45,859 nt of DNA from Solirubrobacter ginsenosidimutans. Its GTDB lineage: Bacteria > Actinomycetota > Thermoleophilia > Solirubrobacterales > Solirubrobacteraceae. The stretch covers positions 1 to 45,859 of the forward strand of contig NZ_JAPDOD010000063.1 of NCBI RefSeq assembly GCF_027587205.1, read 5' to 3'. Under the pieces are notes generated by a model. The model did no database searches and had not been told where the DNA came from. It worked only from the letters and a program-made list of their open reading frames with translations. Made by a program: the position numbers and the translations under genes. This document shows positions 14,766-43,692 of the stretch, one piece after another (within the stretch, counting starts at the first letter, position 1; every line of letters starts with the position of its first letter).

Positions 14766-16193
14766 ATGGCCGACGGCCTCGACGCCTATAGGGCCAAACG
14801 CGACTTCGATGAGACCCCCGAACCGGCGGGAGAGCGGGCCCCGCGCGAGGGCGAGCTGCGCTTCGTCGTACAGGAGCACTCCGCCCGCGCGATGCACTGG
14901 GACCTGCGCCTCGAGCACGAGGGAACGCTGGCCAGCTGGGCGGTTCCGAAGGGCATCCCGACCGACCCGAAGCGCAACAACCTGGCGGTGAGGACCGAGG
15001 ATCACCCGCTCGAGTACCTCGACTTCCACGGCGAGATCCCCGCCGGCCACTACGGCGCGGGCACGATGAAGATCTTCGATCGCGGCACGTTCGAGGTCGA
15101 GAAATGGCGCGACGCCGAGGTCATGGTCGTCTTCCACGGCGAACGCGTGCGCGGCAAGTACGTGCTGTTCAAGACCGGCGGCAAGAACTGGATGATCCAC
15201 CGGATGGACCCGCCGGAGGACCCGGACTCCGAGCCGATGCCGCAGCGGGTCGCGCCGATGCTGGCCCGCATCGGCAAGCTGCCCGTGGGCGAGAACTGGG
15301 CGTACGAGATCAAGTGGGACGGCGTGCGCGCGATCGGCTATGCGGAGGGCGGCCGGCTCAAGCTCGAGAGCCGCAACGCCAACAACATCACGGCGCGCTA
15401 CCCGGAACTGCGCCCCCTCGGCCGCGCTCTCGGGACCCACGAGGCGATCCTCGACGGCGAGGTGGTCGCCCTGGACGCCGATGGCCGCCCGAGCTTCCAG
15501 CGCCTGCAGCGGCGCATGCACCTCACCTCGGAGGGGATGGTCCGGCGCCTGAGCCAGTCCGAGCCCGTCGTCTACATGATCTTCGACCTGCTCTGGCTCG
15601 ACGGCCACTCGCTGATGGAGCTGACCTACGACGAGCGGCGCAAGCACCTCGCCGAGCTCGAGCTGACCGGGCCGACCTGGCAGGCGCCGGCGCATCACGT
15701 CGGCAACGGCGCCGCGCTGCTCGAAGCCTCCAAGGCGCAGGGCCTGGAGGGCCTCGTCGCCAAGCGCCGCGACTCCACGTACCTCCCCGGCCGCCGCTCC
15801 CAGGGCTGGGTGAAGGTCAAGAACGTCCGCAACACCGACGTGGTCGTCGCCGGGTGGGTGGGCGGCGACGGGGGCCGCCTGGGCAAGATCGGCGCGCTCG
15901 TGATCGGCTTCACCACCGACGACGGCGAGCTGCGCTACGCGGGCAAGGTCGGCACGGGCTTCAACGAGGCCGAGCTCAAGCGGCTGCAGGGCATCGTGGA
16001 CCCGCTCGCGCGCGAGACGAGCCCGTTCACCGGCACCCAGCCCGAGAAGGCCACCCACTTCATCGAGCCCACGCTCGTCGCCAGCGTCGACTACGGCGAC
16101 ATGACCGACGCCGGAACCCTGCGTCACCCTGTCTACAAGGGCCTGCGCGACGACATCGACCCCGCCGAGGTCGTCGCACCCGAAGAGCCCTAG
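14766..16193 (+). CDS. ligD: LigD-type ATP-dependent DNA ligase with 3'-phosphoesterase domain
   Basis: 475 residues. Residues ~30-145 form the 3'-phosphoesterase module (FVVQEHSARAMHWDLRLEH, LDFHGEIPAGHYGAGT), which trims 3' ends. The ligase core follows: motif I YEIKWDGVR with Lys183 as the AMP acceptor, LDGEVVALD, YMIFDLLWLDG, EGLVAKRRDS, and motif V WVKVK, then an OB domain. The primase-polymerase domain found in mycobacterial LigD is absent and encoded separately at 28186. With Ku (16673) it performs non-homologous end joining. The stop overlaps the convergent lipoprotein gene. Confidence 0.94.
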   Translation: MADGLDAYRAKRDFDETPEPAGERAPREGELRFVVQEHSARAMHWDLRLEHEGTLASWAVPKGIPTDPKRNNLAVRTEDHPLEYLDFHGEIPAGHYGAGTMKIFDRGTFEVEKWRDAEVMVVFHGERVRGKYVLFKTGGKNWMIHRMDPPEDPDSEPMPQRVAPMLARIGKLPVGENWAYEIKWDGVRAIGYAEGGRLKLESRNANNITARYPELRPLGRALGTHEAILDGEVVALDADGRPSFQRLQRRMHLTSEGMVRRLSQSEPVVYMIFDLLWLDGHSLMELTYDERRKHLAELELTGPTWQAPAHHVGNGAALLEASKAQGLEGLVAKRRDSTYLPGRRSQGWVKVKNVRNTDVVVAGWVGGDGGRLGKIGALVIGFTTDDGELRYAGKVGTGFNEAELKRLQGIVDPLARETSPFTGTQPEKATHFIEPTLVASVDYGDMTDAGTLRHPVYKGLRDDIDPAEVVAPEEP

Positions 16194-27318: not shown

Positions 27319-28127
27319 CCGGTCACCTCCGACTCACGCTGCAGGATGCGCCGGATGACCGCGGAGCGCTCGTCGGCGAGGTCGGCGCCCTGGACGAACC
27401 GGCGCTGCGTGCGGGGCTGACCGTCCGAGCGCGTCGCGATCCGCCGCAACCGCTCGCCGCGTTCCTCGAGCACCTCCAGCGCGGTCCACAGCGCCGCCTC
27501 GACCGCGCTGCTCTGCGCATCGATCGTCAAAGCGTCGCCTTGAACCCCGGTGCCCGGAAGCCCCACCAGCCGGCTCAGGACGGCGCCCATCGCGCCGACG
27601 GGAAGCACGTCGTGCGCGGAGGACACCGCGAGCGCGCTCGCCGGCATCCCGGGCACCAGCGCCTCCTCGGGGTCCTGCACGATCACGTGGCCGCCGGACT
27701 GCGCGACGGCGAGCGCTCCGGCGGCGCCGTCGTCCAGCGCGCCGGACAGCACGACCGCAACCGCGGAGGCGCCCCAGGCCCGCGCGAGCGAGCGGAACAT
27801 CGGGTCCGCCGCGGGCCGCACGCCGTTCTCCTTCGGGCCGGAGCTCAGCTCGACCCGGTCCGCGTGGACGAGCAGGTGCCGGTCGGCGGGGGCGACATAG
27901 ACCACGCCGGACCGGATCGTCGCGTCGTGCTCGGCGACGACGACGTCGAGCTGGCAGACCCGGTTCAGGATGGGGGCGAGGAGGCTGCGCCCGGTCGACG
28001 GGATGTGCAGCACGACGCACAGCGCCGCGTCCAGGTCCGCGGGGAGCTGGCGCACGAGCTGCTGCAGGGTTTCCACCCCGCCCGCGGACGCGGCGACGCC
28101 GATGACGCGGTTGGGCCGCTGGAGCAC
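27315..28127 (-). CDS. cheB: CheB-type methylesterase, no receiver domain
   Basis: 270 residues from GTG 28127. Catalytic Ser14 in GVAASAGGVE, His41 in VVLHIP and Asp in VVLSGALDDGAAG form the CheB triad; GVVYVAPADRHLLV and MPASALAV are further family motifs. The N-terminal receiver domain of classical CheB is missing, so activity is not controlled by direct phosphorylation. A C-terminal ~70-residue helical extension (ALWTALEVLEERGERLRRIA) follows. Cotranslated with cheR. TAGATT 7 bases before GTG marks a leaderless promoter. Confidence 0.92.
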   Translation of the reverse strand: MLQRPNRVIGVAASAGGVETLQQLVRQLPADLDAALCVVLHIPSTGRSLLAPILNRVCQLDVVVAEHDATIRSGVVYVAPADRHLLVHADRVELSSGPKENGVRPAADPMFRSLARAWGASAVAVVLSGALDDGAAGALAVAQSGGHVIVQDPEEALVPGMPASALAVSSAHDVLPVGAMGAVLSRLVGLPGTGVQGDALTIDAQSSAVEAALWTALEVLEERGERLRRIATRSDGQPRTQRRFVQGADLADERSAVIRRILQRESEVTG

Positions 28128-28134
28128 TCACCAG

Positions 28135-28140
28135 AATCTA
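28135..28140 (-). promoter_or_regulatory. -10 hexamer TAGATT of the cheB-cheR operon
   Basis: TAGATT, 7 bases, GTG at 28127. Leaderless arrangement. Confidence 0.55.
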
Positions 28141-28172
28141 CGCGCCCTGAGGTGGGATGCAAAAGGGACCGC

Positions 28173-28178
28173 TACGGT
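28173..28178 (+). promoter_or_regulatory. -10 hexamer TACGGT of the LigD-polymerase gene
   Basis: TACGGT, 7 bases, GTG at 28186. Together with the cheB hexamer it forms a compact 58-base divergent promoter region. Confidence 0.5.
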
Positions 28179-28185
28179 CAGACGC

Positions 28186-29088
28186 GTGCCGCCCGCCAAG
28201 CGCCTCGAAGTCGCGATCGGCGACATCACGTTGTCGCTGTCGAACCTGGAGAAGGTCCTCTACCCGCGCGTTGGGTTCACCAAGGGCCAGGTGATCGACT
28301 ACTACACGCGCATCGCGCCGGTCCTGCTGGCGCACCTGCGCGACCGTCCGCTCACGATGAAGCGCTATCCCAACGGCGTGGAGGACAAGTTCTTCTATGA
28401 GAAACGCTGCCCGTCGCACGCGCCGGCGTGGGTGCAGACCGCGTCCGTCTGGTCCGGGCGCAACGAGGGCAACCTCGACTACTGCCTCTGCCAGGACCTG
28501 CCGACGCTGGTGTGGCTGGCCAACCTCGCCGACCTCGAGTTGCACACGCCGATGGCGCGCGCGCCGGAGATGACCAGCCCGACGATGATCGCGTTCGACC
28601 TCGACCCGGGGCCGCCGGCCAACGTCGTGCAGTGCGCGCGGGTGGCGCTCGAGCTGCGGCGGGCGTTCGAGTTCTGGAGCCTCGAGGCGTTCCCGAAGAC
28701 CTCGGGCTCGAAGGGGATGCAGGTGTATCTGCCGCTGAACACGCCGTCGACGTACGAGGCGACGCGCGAGTTCTCCAAGGGCCTGGCGCATCTGCTGGCG
28801 CGGCGCGACCCGGAGAACATCCTGATCGACATGAACAAGAGCCGGCGGGCGGGGAAGATCTTCGTGGACTGGAGCCAGAACGACCGGCACAAGACGACGG
28901 TCAACGCCTACTCGCTGCGGGCGATGGATGCGCCGACGGTGTCGACGCCGCTGACGTGGGACGAGGTGTCCGACATCGCGGACGGGGACGCGATGGCGTT
29001 TACTTCCGATCAGGTGCTTGAGCGCGTGTCCTCGATGGGCGACCTGTTCGCGCCGGTTCAGACTTTGGAACAGGAGCTGCCGAGCTGA
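28186..29088 (+). CDS. Stand-alone LigD primase-polymerase domain
   Basis: 300 residues from GTG 28186. Family motifs: LSNLEKVLYPRVGFTKGQVI, PLTMKRYPNGVEDKFFYEKR, the metal-binding IAFDLDPGPP, KTSGSKGMQVYLPL and the third acidic residue in ILIDMNKSRRAGKIFVDWSQ. It is an archaeo-eukaryotic-primase-fold enzyme that fills gaps with (ribo)nucleotides during Ku-dependent end joining. The ligase and phosphoesterase domains are in a different gene 12 kb away. The NDH-2 gene starts within its stop (TGATG). Confidence 0.92.
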   Translation: MPPAKRLEVAIGDITLSLSNLEKVLYPRVGFTKGQVIDYYTRIAPVLLAHLRDRPLTMKRYPNGVEDKFFYEKRCPSHAPAWVQTASVWSGRNEGNLDYCLCQDLPTLVWLANLADLELHTPMARAPEMTSPTMIAFDLDPGPPANVVQCARVALELRRAFEFWSLEAFPKTSGSKGMQVYLPLNTPSTYEATREFSKGLAHLLARRDPENILIDMNKSRRAGKIFVDWSQNDRHKTTVNAYSLRAMDAPTVSTPLTWDEVSDIADGDAMAFTSDQVLERVSSMGDLFAPVQTLEQELPS

Positions 29089-37619: not shown

Positions 37620-38522
37620 TCAGTTCGCTAGGCAGGCGATCGGCACCAAGAGGTACTCCAGGAAGAACAGCGCCCACACGCGCATGTAGAAGCGTGTGAA
37701 GGCCTCCCGATCGCGTGGCTCCGCCGATCTGGACCAGTACCACAGCAGTGCCGCGGCGGCAACATGGCCGACGATCAGGACCACCGGCTGCGCGTAATCG
37801 GCGAGCAGGAACGGGGCCACGAAGATCATCCCGCCGTAGGCGATCGCGAGCGCCGCCATACCGATCGCGAACACCCGCCCGCCGCCGAGGCGAACCGTGA
37901 AGGTGCGGATCGAGTACCGCCGATCCCCCTCGAGGTCCGGCACGTCCTTGAGCACCGCGATCGCGAAGCTGAACGGGAGCACGAACAGGCACAGCGCCCA
38001 CACCGGCGGTGAGATGTCTCCCGCGAAGTGCCAGTACACGCCGAGGTTGACGACGATGCTCCGCACCCCCGTGATGCACAGCGAGGCGGCGACCGGGAAC
38101 CGCTTGAAGCGAAACGGCGGCAGCGAGTAGAGCGCGCCGACCGCGAGGCCGGCGGCGACCGCGACGGTCTCCGCCACGCCCTGCGTCACGGCCATGGCGA
38201 GCGGGATCGCGGTGCAGGCGATGACGATCGCCCGCGCCGCGCCCATCGACAGGTCCCCGGCCGCGATCGGTAGGAACGGCTTGTTGACGCGATCGATCTC
38301 GACGTCGGTCAGCTGATTGACGCCGGTGATCGCGATGTTGACGGTGAGGCCGGCCACGAGCGTGGCGAGCAGGTCCGCCGCGCCGGGCGCGTCGCTCTCG
38401 GCGACCGCGATCAGGTAGAGGCCGACGACGGAGAGCGCGGTGCCGATGAGCGTGTGCGGCCGGCCGAAGCGCCACAGGAGCACGGCGGGATTGGTGCGCG
38501 AGCCGGCGGCGGCGATGGTCAT
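37620..38522 (-). CDS. UbiA prenyltransferase, homogentisate prenyl/phytyltransferase-like (VTE2 type)
   Basis: 300 residues with about eight or nine membrane segments. The first Asp-rich motif lies in VNQLTDVEIDRVNKPFLPIA and the second in AVLKDVPDLEGDRRYSI. These read very like plant and cyanobacterial homogentisate prenyltransferases, including NKPxLPIAAG(D/E)LS, rather than UbiA, MenA or chlorophyll synthase. Expected reaction: transfer of a prenyl chain to homogentisate with loss of CO2, giving a methyl-prenyl-benzoquinol. Phytyl versus solanesyl preference cannot be told. The upstream gene on the strand encodes the matching methyltransferase (88-base gap). Confidence 0.82.
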   Translation of the reverse strand: MTIAAAGSRTNPAVLLWRFGRPHTLIGTALSVVGLYLIAVAESDAPGAADLLATLVAGLTVNIAITGVNQLTDVEIDRVNKPFLPIAAGDLSMGAARAIVIACTAIPLAMAVTQGVAETVAVAAGLAVGALYSLPPFRFKRFPVAASLCITGVRSIVVNLGVYWHFAGDISPPVWALCLFVLPFSFAIAVLKDVPDLEGDRRYSIRTFTVRLGGGRVFAIGMAALAIAYGGMIFVAPFLLADYAQPVVLIVGHVAAAALLWYWSRSAEPRDREAFTRFYMRVWALFFLEYLLVPIACLAN

Positions 38523-38610
38523 GCGCGGCCTCGCGCGGCGGGGACGGGCGGCGCGGCGTGGCGCGGACGCGCGGCGTCGTCGCGTCGCCTCGCGCCGATC
38601 GCCGCGGGGT

Positions 38611-39411
38611 TCACCCCGCGCGCCTCGCCGCGAGGCGGTCGCGGACGGTCAACACGGCCGCGATCGGGATGAAGAGCGCGCCCGCGGCCGATCCGGCCAC
38701 GAACCGGAACGCGAACCGCGCGCGGCTCGGCGGCGGCTCAGGCGGTGCCGGCGGCGGGGCGGGCGACGGGCCCGGCGCGGGCTTGACGCCGCTGATCGCC
38801 AGCGCGTAGGGGGCGCGCTGGTCGCGGTACCAATCGGGCGCGAGCTCGACCACGCGAACGTCGGTGAACCCCGCGGCCTCCATCCAGCGCGTGTACTCCT
38901 CGACCGCGGGGAAGAGCATCCAGGTCTCGGCGAGCGCCCGCGCGACGCGGTTTGCCGGGCGGACCGGGCCGATGACCAGGGCGGTGGCACCGCTCCTCAC
39001 CACGCGGTAGGCCTCGGCGATGCCGCGCTGCGGGTCCGGCCAGTACTCGATCGAGCCGGCGGAGACGTAGCGGTCGAACGTGTCGTCGGCGAACGGGAGG
39101 TTCTCCGCATCGCCCAGGACCCGCGGGCAGTCGGCCAGCGCGGGCTTGGTCCGCGAGCGGGCGAGCTGGTGCGGCGACTGGTCGAGCATCGTCACGCTCG
39201 ATGCCTCCACGCGCGCCACGATCCCCTCGGTCGTGAAGCCGGTGCCCGCGCCCGCGTCGAGCACGTTCATCCCGCGCTCCAAGCGCGCCTGCTCGAGCGC
39301 CAGCGCGCGCATCGCGGGCGTCCAGAACAGCGGGTTGACCCACCGGTCATATCCGAGCGAGAGGAAGCGGTAGAACCAGTACGCCTCGCGCTTGTGCTGG
39401 ATCAGACGCAT
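38611..39411 (-). CDS. MPBQ/MSBQ methyltransferase, plant VTE3 type
   Basis: 266 residues. LIQHKREAYWFYRFLS at the start, SAM motif I VLDAGAGTGFTTEGI, DQSPHQLARS, GDAENLPFADDTFDRYVSAG, SIEYWPDPQRGIAEAYRV, ETWMLFP and ISGVKP are, as far as I remember, nearly diagnostic for plant VTE3 (2-methyl-6-phytyl/solanesyl-1,4-benzoquinol methyltransferase). Like VTE3 it ends with a Pro-rich linker and one C-terminal membrane segment (FVAGSAAGALFIPIAAVLTV). Expected: C-methylation of the product of the prenyltransferase encoded next, toward plastoquinol or gamma-tocopherol-like compounds. TATCGT lies 9 bases before the ATG. Confidence 0.88.
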   Translation of the reverse strand: MRLIQHKREAYWFYRFLSLGYDRWVNPLFWTPAMRALALEQARLERGMNVLDAGAGTGFTTEGIVARVEASSVTMLDQSPHQLARSRTKPALADCPRVLGDAENLPFADDTFDRYVSAGSIEYWPDPQRGIAEAYRVVRSGATALVIGPVRPANRVARALAETWMLFPAVEEYTRWMEAAGFTDVRVVELAPDWYRDQRAPYALAISGVKPAPGPSPAPPPAPPEPPPSRARFAFRFVAGSAAGALFIPIAAVLTVRDRLAARRAG

Positions 39412-39431: not shown

Positions 39432-39968
39432 GTGAGCGAGGCGTTGGACCACTGGGTGCCGGACTACAGCGTCCGCACGTATCACCGGCGTGAGGCGACC
39501 GTCGATCAGGCCGCGCTGTGGCGCGCCGCGACGACGATCCGCCTCGCCGACACCCGCCGGCTCGGAAAGCTGGTGAGCTGGCGGATTCCCGATGTGCATC
39601 CGTCGCAGACCTACCACGAGCTGTTTCGTGCCTATCCCTTCACGGTATTGGAGGAGACAGACGACCTGTTGGTCTCCGGACTGTGCGGGAAGATCTGGAC
39701 GCTCGCCCGTGATTACCCGAGGCTTGCCGACGCGGACGCGTTCGCGGACTGGGATGAGCGTGGGACCGTGCGTGTCGCCTTCGCCCACTGGGCCCGTGAG
39801 CGGGAGGACGGCACCTCGGAACTGTGCTCAGAAGCCCGCGTCCATGCCGTCGACACGACCGCCCGGCTGCGGCTGAAGGCGATCTGGGCGCTGCTCGGCC
39901 CGTTCGAGCGCCTGGTCGGCGCGGAACCCCTCGAATTGGCGGTCTCCCGGGCTACGGGGGCAACCTAG
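39432..39968 (+). CDS. Uncharacterised protein, possibly SRPBCC/START-like fold
   Basis: 178 residues from GTG 39432. VPDYSVRTYHRREATVDQAA, ADTRRLGKLVSWRIPD, FTVLEETDDLLVSGLCGKIW, RVAFAHWAREREDGTSELCS and the end ARLRLKAIWALLGPFERLVG resemble small actinobacterial helix-grip proteins whose last helix carries the ARxRxxxYW-PF pattern. I cannot name the family with certainty. No signal or membrane segment. Divergent from the VTE3-like gene, followed 12 bases later by the large phosphatase gene. Confidence 0.65.
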   Translation: MSEALDHWVPDYSVRTYHRREATVDQAALWRAATTIRLADTRRLGKLVSWRIPDVHPSQTYHELFRAYPFTVLEETDDLLVSGLCGKIWTLARDYPRLADADAFADWDERGTVRVAFAHWAREREDGTSELCSEARVHAVDTTARLRLKAIWALLGPFERLVGAEPLELAVSRATGAT

Positions 39969-42812: not shown

Positions 42813-43565
42813 CTACCCCGGTGGCGTCGACCCGTCCTCTAGCCCCGCCAAACCCTCCGATGCGAGCCACAAGCGCCGCCCCCGCCAAACCCGCACCTTG
42901 AGCTGCCCGACGAGGTGATGATTCGACCGCACCTCGAGCCGCCGTTCCGCCGGCAACGGCACCGGGAGCCGCAGCCCCTCACCCGCCGAGCCCTCGATCT
43001 CCACCCGCCAGCGCGCGGACTTCGCGCGGATGTGCCACTCGCCCCCACCCGCCCGCGCCACGGTGCGCGCGAACGGCGGCGCCAGGGAGATGAGGCCGTC
43101 CGGCGTCCACGCGACGACCGCGGTCGGCGCAACCCCGTGGATCCGCCCGCCCGCGAACGCCACGCCCGGGCCCTGGCCCCACCACCAGTGGTCGGCGAAG
43201 GCGGCGCCCCAGTTCTTCTCCGCATAGACGTCCACGCCGTCCAACGAGCGCGAACCGTACGAGCCCGACACGCGGGCACCGAGCAGATGCGGCGCCCAGT
43301 ACTGGCCGAGCCAGGGGACCATCTGCACCGGGCCGAGCGGCCCGAAGGCGCCCGACCACCCGCGCGGCGCCGAGAACCGCGCCTCCAGTCGCCGCCCCAG
43401 ATCCACCCGCAGAGACGTCTCGTCGGCCTGAAACCACGGTCCGGCGTCCACGCGCAGCCGATCGCGGCCGATCGATGCGACGTTGACGATCTCGGTGCGC
43501 TCGAACCCGTCAGGCTCGGACGCGAGCGTGACCATCGCCCACGTCCCGTGCGCGTCGCGGCACAC
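42813..43565 (-). CDS. Tocopherol cyclase (VTE1) family protein
   Basis: 250 residues if started at GTG 43565. FGPLGPVQMVPWLGQYWAPH, VDVYAEKNWGAAFADHWWWG and, near the C-terminus, GQLKVRVWRGRRLWLASEGL correspond to the plant VTE1 blocks with SEKNWGxGFP-W and GELKLQIW. A homologous N-terminal block (PFEGYYWRFAG, compare FEGWYFRV in VTE1) lies in the same frame upstream to about 43685, but the only start codons there would be CTG (43685, 43664), so the true start is unresolved. Expected family reaction: closing the chromanol ring of a prenyl quinol. It follows glycan-related genes on this strand. Confidence 0.75.
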   Translation of the reverse strand: MCRDAHGTWAMVTLASEPDGFERTEIVNVASIGRDRLRVDAGPWFQADETSLRVDLGRRLEARFSAPRGWSGAFGPLGPVQMVPWLGQYWAPHLLGARVSGSYGSRSLDGVDVYAEKNWGAAFADHWWWGQGPGVAFAGGRIHGVAPTAVVAWTPDGLISLAPPFARTVARAGGGEWHIRAKSARWRVEIEGSAGEGLRLPVPLPAERRLEVRSNHHLVGQLKVRVWRGRRLWLASEGLAGLEDGSTPPG

Positions 43566-43692
43566 GCCCGCGATCGCGCAGACGCTCCAGTCCGCCCCCG
43601 CGAAACGCCAGTAATAGCCCTCGAAGGGGACGCCGTGCGCGCGCCGCGGATCCGCGAAGGGCAGGTCGGCGCCGGTGCGCCTCAGCGAGAGA

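Follow-up and report, generated by a model that had tools for sequence, protein, structure and literature searches.

The stretch of DNA analysed here, hereafter the window, comprises 45,859 bases of Solirubrobacter ginsenosidimutans (contig NZ_JAPDOD010000063.1; GC content of 71%) and appears, from its sequence, to encode the head-group half of a tocochromanol pathway, i.e. vitamin-E-type, of the gamma form, whose product would serve as a membrane antioxidant; this reading is given a probability of about 0.6. It centres on two neighbouring minus-strand genes, namely a VTE2-like homogentisate prenyltransferase (HPT) of the UbiA family (37620..38522, 300 aa) and, 88 bases away, a VTE3-type MPBQ/MSBQ methyltransferase with a C-terminal membrane anchor (38611..39411, 266 aa), both recovered as open reading frames (ORFs) exactly where a first-pass annotation of this DNA had placed them. 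That annotation was right about the pair and overlooked a third minus-strand gene, 3.4 kb away, for a divergent homologue of the tocopherol cyclase VTE1 (42813..43685, 290 aa if read from CTG). The pair does not consist of chance ORFs, since its nearest database relatives reach 95% identity for the methyltransferase and 97% for the UbiA protein, and since the Solirubrobacter loci L001-L006 keep both genes at 73-89%. The surrounding region, from a WYL regulator through DUF2334 and MGH1-like hydrolase genes, is syntenic with Solirubrobacter soli and other Solirubrobacter strains, and the cluster itself is syntenic across the cultured S. soli, S. deserti and S. phytolaccae, with intact ORFs and motifs kept. 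Set against such conservation, the idea that these genes are relics or contaminants giving no product is highly improbable, even if it would suit their patchy distribution, HPT being rare across the class (6/249 sampled Thermoleophilia genomes).

The UbiA protein belongs by sequence to the homogentisate prenyltransferase family. Besides PF01040 (131 bits), it matches the NCBIfam model NF009525 for homogentisate phytyltransferase at 333.1 bits for a cut-off of 226, the runner-up among the 19 models matching it standing at 81 bits, and it carries two aspartate-rich motifs of HPT type, NQLTDVEIDRVNKPFLPIAAG and DVPDLEGDRRYSIRT, which we take to mark this enzyme. The motifs NQLTDVEIDRVNKPFLPIAAG and DVPDLEGD are shared with the cyanobacterial HPT L072, and the UbiA paralogues from the genomes of L071 and L072 (L091 and L092, presumed to be ChlG) read NDFYDREIDAINEP instead; overall, the window HPT is 44-45% identical to L071 and L072. 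The homogentisate-prenyltransferase motifs claimed by the first-pass annotation are thus borne out, and the MenA, UbiA or chlorophyll-synthase identity that it had named as the outcome to fear is ruled out, as the protein fits the HPT model and not those models. Since the HPT tree is poorly rooted (outgroup rows badly aligned, L090 on a branch of 7.66), only its motif table and identities are used here.

The methyltransferase falls just as plainly within the VTE3-type family, being 51% identical to Arabidopsis VTE3 (P0242) along its full length (270 columns, 242 bits). This alignment confirms the block-by-block plant signature and the C-terminal anchor that had been read from the letters: the three signature blocks (one being DQSPHQLA) are present and aligned, and the hydrophobic C-terminal stretch (best 19-residue Kyte-Doolittle mean of 2.05 at residue 238) aligns with the plant C-terminus. 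Among the matches listed, many of the 120 relatives of the methyltransferase bear the JGI name MPBQ/MSBQ methyltransferase. Two other identities were considered and ruled out, namely UbiE/MenG, with scores far under the cut-offs (53.5 bits against TIGR01934, cut-off 158.35), and MpqE (31.9 bits against NCBIfam NF052510, cut-off 335). As regards a possible clustering with ordinary UbiE or SAM enzymes, the model scores thus argue against UbiE, the tree being built of VTE3-type rows only, with no UbiE rows.

The VTE3 type had been described at first pass as known from plants and some archaea, a range that proved too narrow, as it also occurs in Actinomycetota, Bacteroidota, Calditrichota, Troglogloeales and two cyanobacteria-labelled genomes. 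Six short peptide patterns taken from the window protein, a probe that reaches close relatives only, were run against one genome per species and hit 48 loci, i.e. 14 in Thermoleophilia, 24 in Bacteroidota, one in Calditrichota, five in Troglogloeales, two in cyanobacteria-labelled genomes and two in Archaeoglobaceae. One strain is counted twice, as assemblies L002 and L003, which leaves no more than 13 strains behind the 14 Thermoleophilia loci; L013 and L139 look like a single contig, and many loci are metagenome-assembled genomes (MAGs). Cyanobacteria are said to use an unrelated MPBQ methyltransferase; the plant-type VTE3 was nevertheless seen in the cyanobacteria-labelled L042 (a Gomphosphaeria aponina MAG) and L008 (the QS_4_48_99 MAG). 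In a midpoint-rooted tree of 37 VTE3-type rows, the Thermoleophilia proteins form a single group (90/92), adjoined by those of the two cyanobacteria-labelled genomes (95/83); Bacteroidota and Calditrichota make up another branch (91/92), with Troglogloeales and Archaeoglobaceae further out. Plant VTE3s lie outside the Thermoleophilia and cyanobacteria-labelled group and join it at a weak 81/25, so that a recent transfer from plant to actinobacterium is unsupported and the label of plant-type should not be taken to mean a gift from plants. Plant VTE3 is often called archaeal in origin, a question that would be reopened if culturable heterotrophs do carry the complete set.

Regarding the third gene, its frame is open to 43712 and its start is uncertain because the first ATG, GTG or TTG occurs only at 43565, within the conserved part. 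The VTE1-like protein scores 37.6 bits against PF14249 (cut-off 26.6) and bears the motif YAEKNWG...WWWGQ, the YxEKNWG element together with its tryptophan-rich neighbour reading YAEKNWGAAFADHWWWGQ. Its predicted fold is AttH/kievitone-hydratase-like (pLDDT, the predicted local distance difference test score, of 84.5), and the cyclase profile matched no PDB sequence at E 0.1.

The three genes keep company well beyond the window. Within the 14 Thermoleophilia loci, a cyclase homologue is found near VTE3 in 11 (the exceptions being L010, L011 and L013) and HPT in 12, the other two (L004 and L011) ending too early to show it; cyclase, VTE3 and HPT are directly adjacent, in that order, in L007, L009 and L022. 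HPT was detected in 15/146 Solirubrobacteraceae genomes (14 over cut-off and one split across two contigs), and VTE3, counted by scoring the 17 best first-look candidates per genome at E 1e-40, in 14 of these 15 vs. none of the 131 HPT-less ones; in the genome with HPT and no VTE3 (G274), HPT lies 22 bases from a contig end. PF14249 at E 0.001 follows the same trend, with 14/15 HPT-carrying vs. 35/131 HPT-less genomes (Fisher p 6e-7, kinship ignored). The association of cyclase with HPT is therefore strong, even though members of the cyclase family extend beyond the pathway. Over the 22 genomes searched, HPT exceeded its cut-off in 18, PF14249 in 17 and 4-hydroxyphenylpyruvate dioxygenase (HPPD) in 15. 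The ten Thermoleophilia relatives among them gave HPT in 10, PF14249 in 9, HPPD in 10 and MenA in 9, and 14 named control genomes gave, over cut-off, PF14249 in 0, HPT in 0, HPPD in 1, MenA in 6 and the reductase model in 6. The homogentisate source suggested for a search at first pass is thus present in all ten relatives; HPPD alone is common in tyrosine breakdown.

In the proposed mechanism, homogentisate supplied by an HPPD encoded elsewhere in the genome would be decarboxylated and prenylated by the UbiA enzyme into 2-methyl-6-prenyl-benzoquinol; ring methylation by the VTE3 enzyme would turn this into the 2,3-dimethyl compound, whose first prenyl double bond would then be protonated by the VTE1-like protein, the ring hydroxyl closing the chromanol. 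Lacking a VTE4, the pathway would stop at a gamma-type product, namely gamma-tocotrienol, gamma-tocopherol or a longer-tailed homologue, which could serve as membrane antioxidant in a menaquinone-respiring soil actinobacterium exposed to sun and drought. The dimethyl-prenyl-benzoquinol predicted at first pass withstands the sequence tests, and the pair very probably makes it; its further fate is where the prediction shifts, since a cyclase homologue accompanies the pair and MK-7(H4) is the menaquinone reported for the genus, both of which make a cyclised tocochromanol likelier than a respiratory plastoquinone, and the product probably ends as a chromanol.

Several observations weigh against a tocochromanol. 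In the window, two plus-strand genes stand between the VTE1-like gene and the pair, the PF14249 match of the VTE1-like protein spans 21 residues only, and no NCBIfam model matches it. One MAG (G007, locus L010) has HPT and VTE3 with no PF14249 match. Of the 35 HPT-less Solirubrobacteraceae genomes with PF14249, 30 are over cut-off, and the homologues unlinked to HPT match the profile of two cyanobacterial VTE1s no less well than their linked counterparts (98.8% vs. 98.6%). Linked and unlinked Solirubrobacteraceae proteins also intermix in the tree, apart from the cyanobacterial cyclases, which is why the window protein is filed as VTE1-like and not as VTE1; together with the occurrences without HPT, this mixing indicates that the family has some role outside the pathway. 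Given these occurrences and the equal match to cyanobacterial cyclases, cyclisation in vivo is something that we infer, as we do the substrates, the prenyl tail and the antioxidant role. As for the remaining enzymes, a geranylgeranyl reductase, also suggested for a search at first pass, exceeds the TIGR02032 cut-off in 0/10 Thermoleophilia genomes, with weaker matches only, and a VTE4-type methyltransferase at E 1e-15 is absent in 11 out of 12, the twelfth having a match of 32% identity. Finally, HPT is present in 12/396 sampled Actinomycetota (two previously known), and the 11 HPT regions of ten further actinobacterial genomes over cut-off (G440, G489, G509, G576, G586, G596, G641, G649, G681 and G710) show no homologue of VTE3, the cyclase, VTE4 or the reductase over some 5 kb, or less at contig ends.

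It is on such grounds that an uncyclised, plastoquinone-like redox quinone could be envisaged, which would supplement menaquinone as a further electron carrier or act as a quinol antioxidant, with something else as the substrate of the VTE1-like protein. The intermixed relatives in HPT-less genomes and the MAG with HPT and VTE3 but without PF14249 would fit it, and the non-phototrophic Nitrospira have plastoquinone derivatives as their quinones according to the available part of a report (PMC12324825). The cyclase homologue near the pair in most Thermoleophilia loci nonetheless argues the other way, as do menA over cut-off in nine of the ten relatives and the predominant menaquinone MK-7(H4) given for the desert soil isolate Solirubrobacter deserti CPCC 204708 in the accessible portion of its description (PMC10722151), so that this alternative is rather unlikely, if far from negligible. 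The genome of that strain contains the cluster (L002/L003); tocopherol and vitamin E have no occurrence in the main text of PMC10722151, and the menaquinone analysis used there is of a kind that would probably not reveal tocochromanols.

The enzymes might instead use another phenolic acceptor or build a specialised meroterpenoid, of which the lipocalin-like protein would be the hydratase or cyclase. This reading likewise draws on part of the above: specialised metabolism is where kievitone hydratase and fungal pericyclases, which have the predicted fold, are active, and HPT-like proteins may have other roles, judging from the HPT-like genes of those ten actinobacterial genomes. It is improbable when confronted with an HPT over its equivalog cut-off, a VTE3 half identical to the plant enzyme, HPPD in relatives and the 30 other window ORFs scanned, none of which resembles a natural-product cluster. 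HPT without nearby partners has a further case in Bacteroidota, where HPT was found in 2/395 sampled genomes (one previously known) and the HPT region of the further genome (G896) shows none of the same four homologues over some 5 kb, again shorter at contig ends; for that reason, an isolated HPT is not counted here as a sign of the pathway. Conversely, the Troglogloeales loci L033, L041, L043, L045 and L048 and the Archaeoglobaceae loci L046 and L047 have a VTE3-type gene with no HPT homologue in the stretch examined, and a search of two genomes from each of these groups gave no HPT over cut-off; the substrate of these VTE3s may come from another route.

Coming back to the tocochromanol, a parallel set occurs in Bacteroidota (L015-L021, L023, L024, L026-L032, L034-L040 and L044) and Calditrichota (L025). 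A second methyltransferase adjoins VTE3 in 23/24 Bacteroidota loci, L020 being cut by a contig end, as well as in L025; within the stretch examined, 15 of the 24 Bacteroidota loci also show HPT and 11 a geranylgeranyl reductase. The second methyltransferase of L025 is 50% identical to a sequence taken as that of Slr0089, the gamma-tocopherol methyltransferase, 54% to genes of two cyanobacterial genomes and 46-53% to the Bacteroidota ones, its VTE4 label resting on these identities and not on a curated model. In all five Bacteroidota genomes tested, PF14249 and HPT both exceed their cut-offs; HPPD was found in four and MenA in none, so their prenylquinol may have a redox role as far as the MenA search goes. 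VTE4 acts on chromanols (PMC11989935, in the part available), hence a VTE4-like gene points to tocopherol rather than plastoquinone in Bacteroidota and, by analogy, likewise for the actinobacterial set. Judging from gene content, Bacteroidota, including the cultured Neolewinella persica and Flavilitoribacter nigricans, apparently hold a fuller alpha-tocopherol gene set in non-phototrophs.

Compared with the plant tocochromanol pathway (VTE2, VTE3, VTE1 and VTE4, with HPPD), the window has HPT, a VTE3 with the same anchor and a VTE1 homologue, HPPD being found in relatives; it differs in its non-photosynthetic host, its clustered genes, a very divergent cyclase and, in Thermoleophilia, the lack of VTE4 and of a geranylgeranyl reductase over cut-off in the proportions given above. 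The cyanobacterial tocopherol pathway shares HPT and a cyclase homologue, but cyanobacterial cyclases match PF14249 at more than 530 bits vs. 38 for the window protein. The methyl-plastoquinone system of Nitrospira (MpqE and partners; PMC12324825) resembles the proposed one, in the text available, by a plastoquinone-type ring in a non-phototroph and a ring methyltransferase, from which that of the window is remote by its MpqE score. Tocopherol-cyclase-like proteins of heterotrophic bacteria were reported in 2016 with function unknown (PMC4963081); they also show the YxEKNWG motif in non-photosynthetic bacteria, but the accessible portion of that article mentions no partner HPT or VTE3.

Vitamin E is stated to be made only by photosynthetic organisms (PMC9515888 and PMC5745509, in the excerpts available), a rule that would no longer hold if culturable heterotrophs possess the full gene set. 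Among the matches listed from the open-licence literature, outside which most subscription journals lie, none describes a non-phototroph that combines HPT, VTE3 and VTE1. Whether de novo vitamin E synthesis extends beyond phototrophs stands at even odds, with Solirubrobacter of deserts and soils making the gamma type and cultured Lewinella-group Bacteroidota the alpha type via a VTE3-VTE4 pair, often beside HPT or geranylgeranyl reductase, and a separate VTE1-like gene. If true, the plant pathway would go back to a bacterial repertoire that predates it; this would also give new enzymes for vitamin E production and might account for some of the tolerance of Solirubrobacter to UV and desiccation.

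The VTE1-like proteins of HPT-less genomes show some features of their own: of 12 such proteins (L145-L156), ten keep YxEKNWG and two have EKNWS, and their substrate is possibly menaquinol. Their neighbourhoods share no common pathway gene in the 12 regions examined, where L147 gave no ORF calls and L154 a single one; two families recur in four loci each, which we read as presumably NadC and, from the longest members, a Clp ATPase.

Divergent from the VTE3 gene, with starts 20 bases apart, the plus-strand gene at 39432..39968 has a homologue near the cluster in 10/14 Thermoleophilia loci. Its product matches no Pfam or NCBIfam family, and its AlphaFold model (pLDDT of 89.2), whose PDB structure matches are weak (best E 2e-4, template-modelling score of 0.32), suggests a helix-grip fold, possibly Bet v 1/START-like; the protein may carry the lipid product. 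Elsewhere in the window, a stress-type island (2985-29088) contains four sigma factors, a SpoIIE phosphatase, a STAS protein, topoisomerase IB and CheR/CheB, along with a split LigD whose ligase (14766-16193) and polymerase (27970-29088) are encoded separately.
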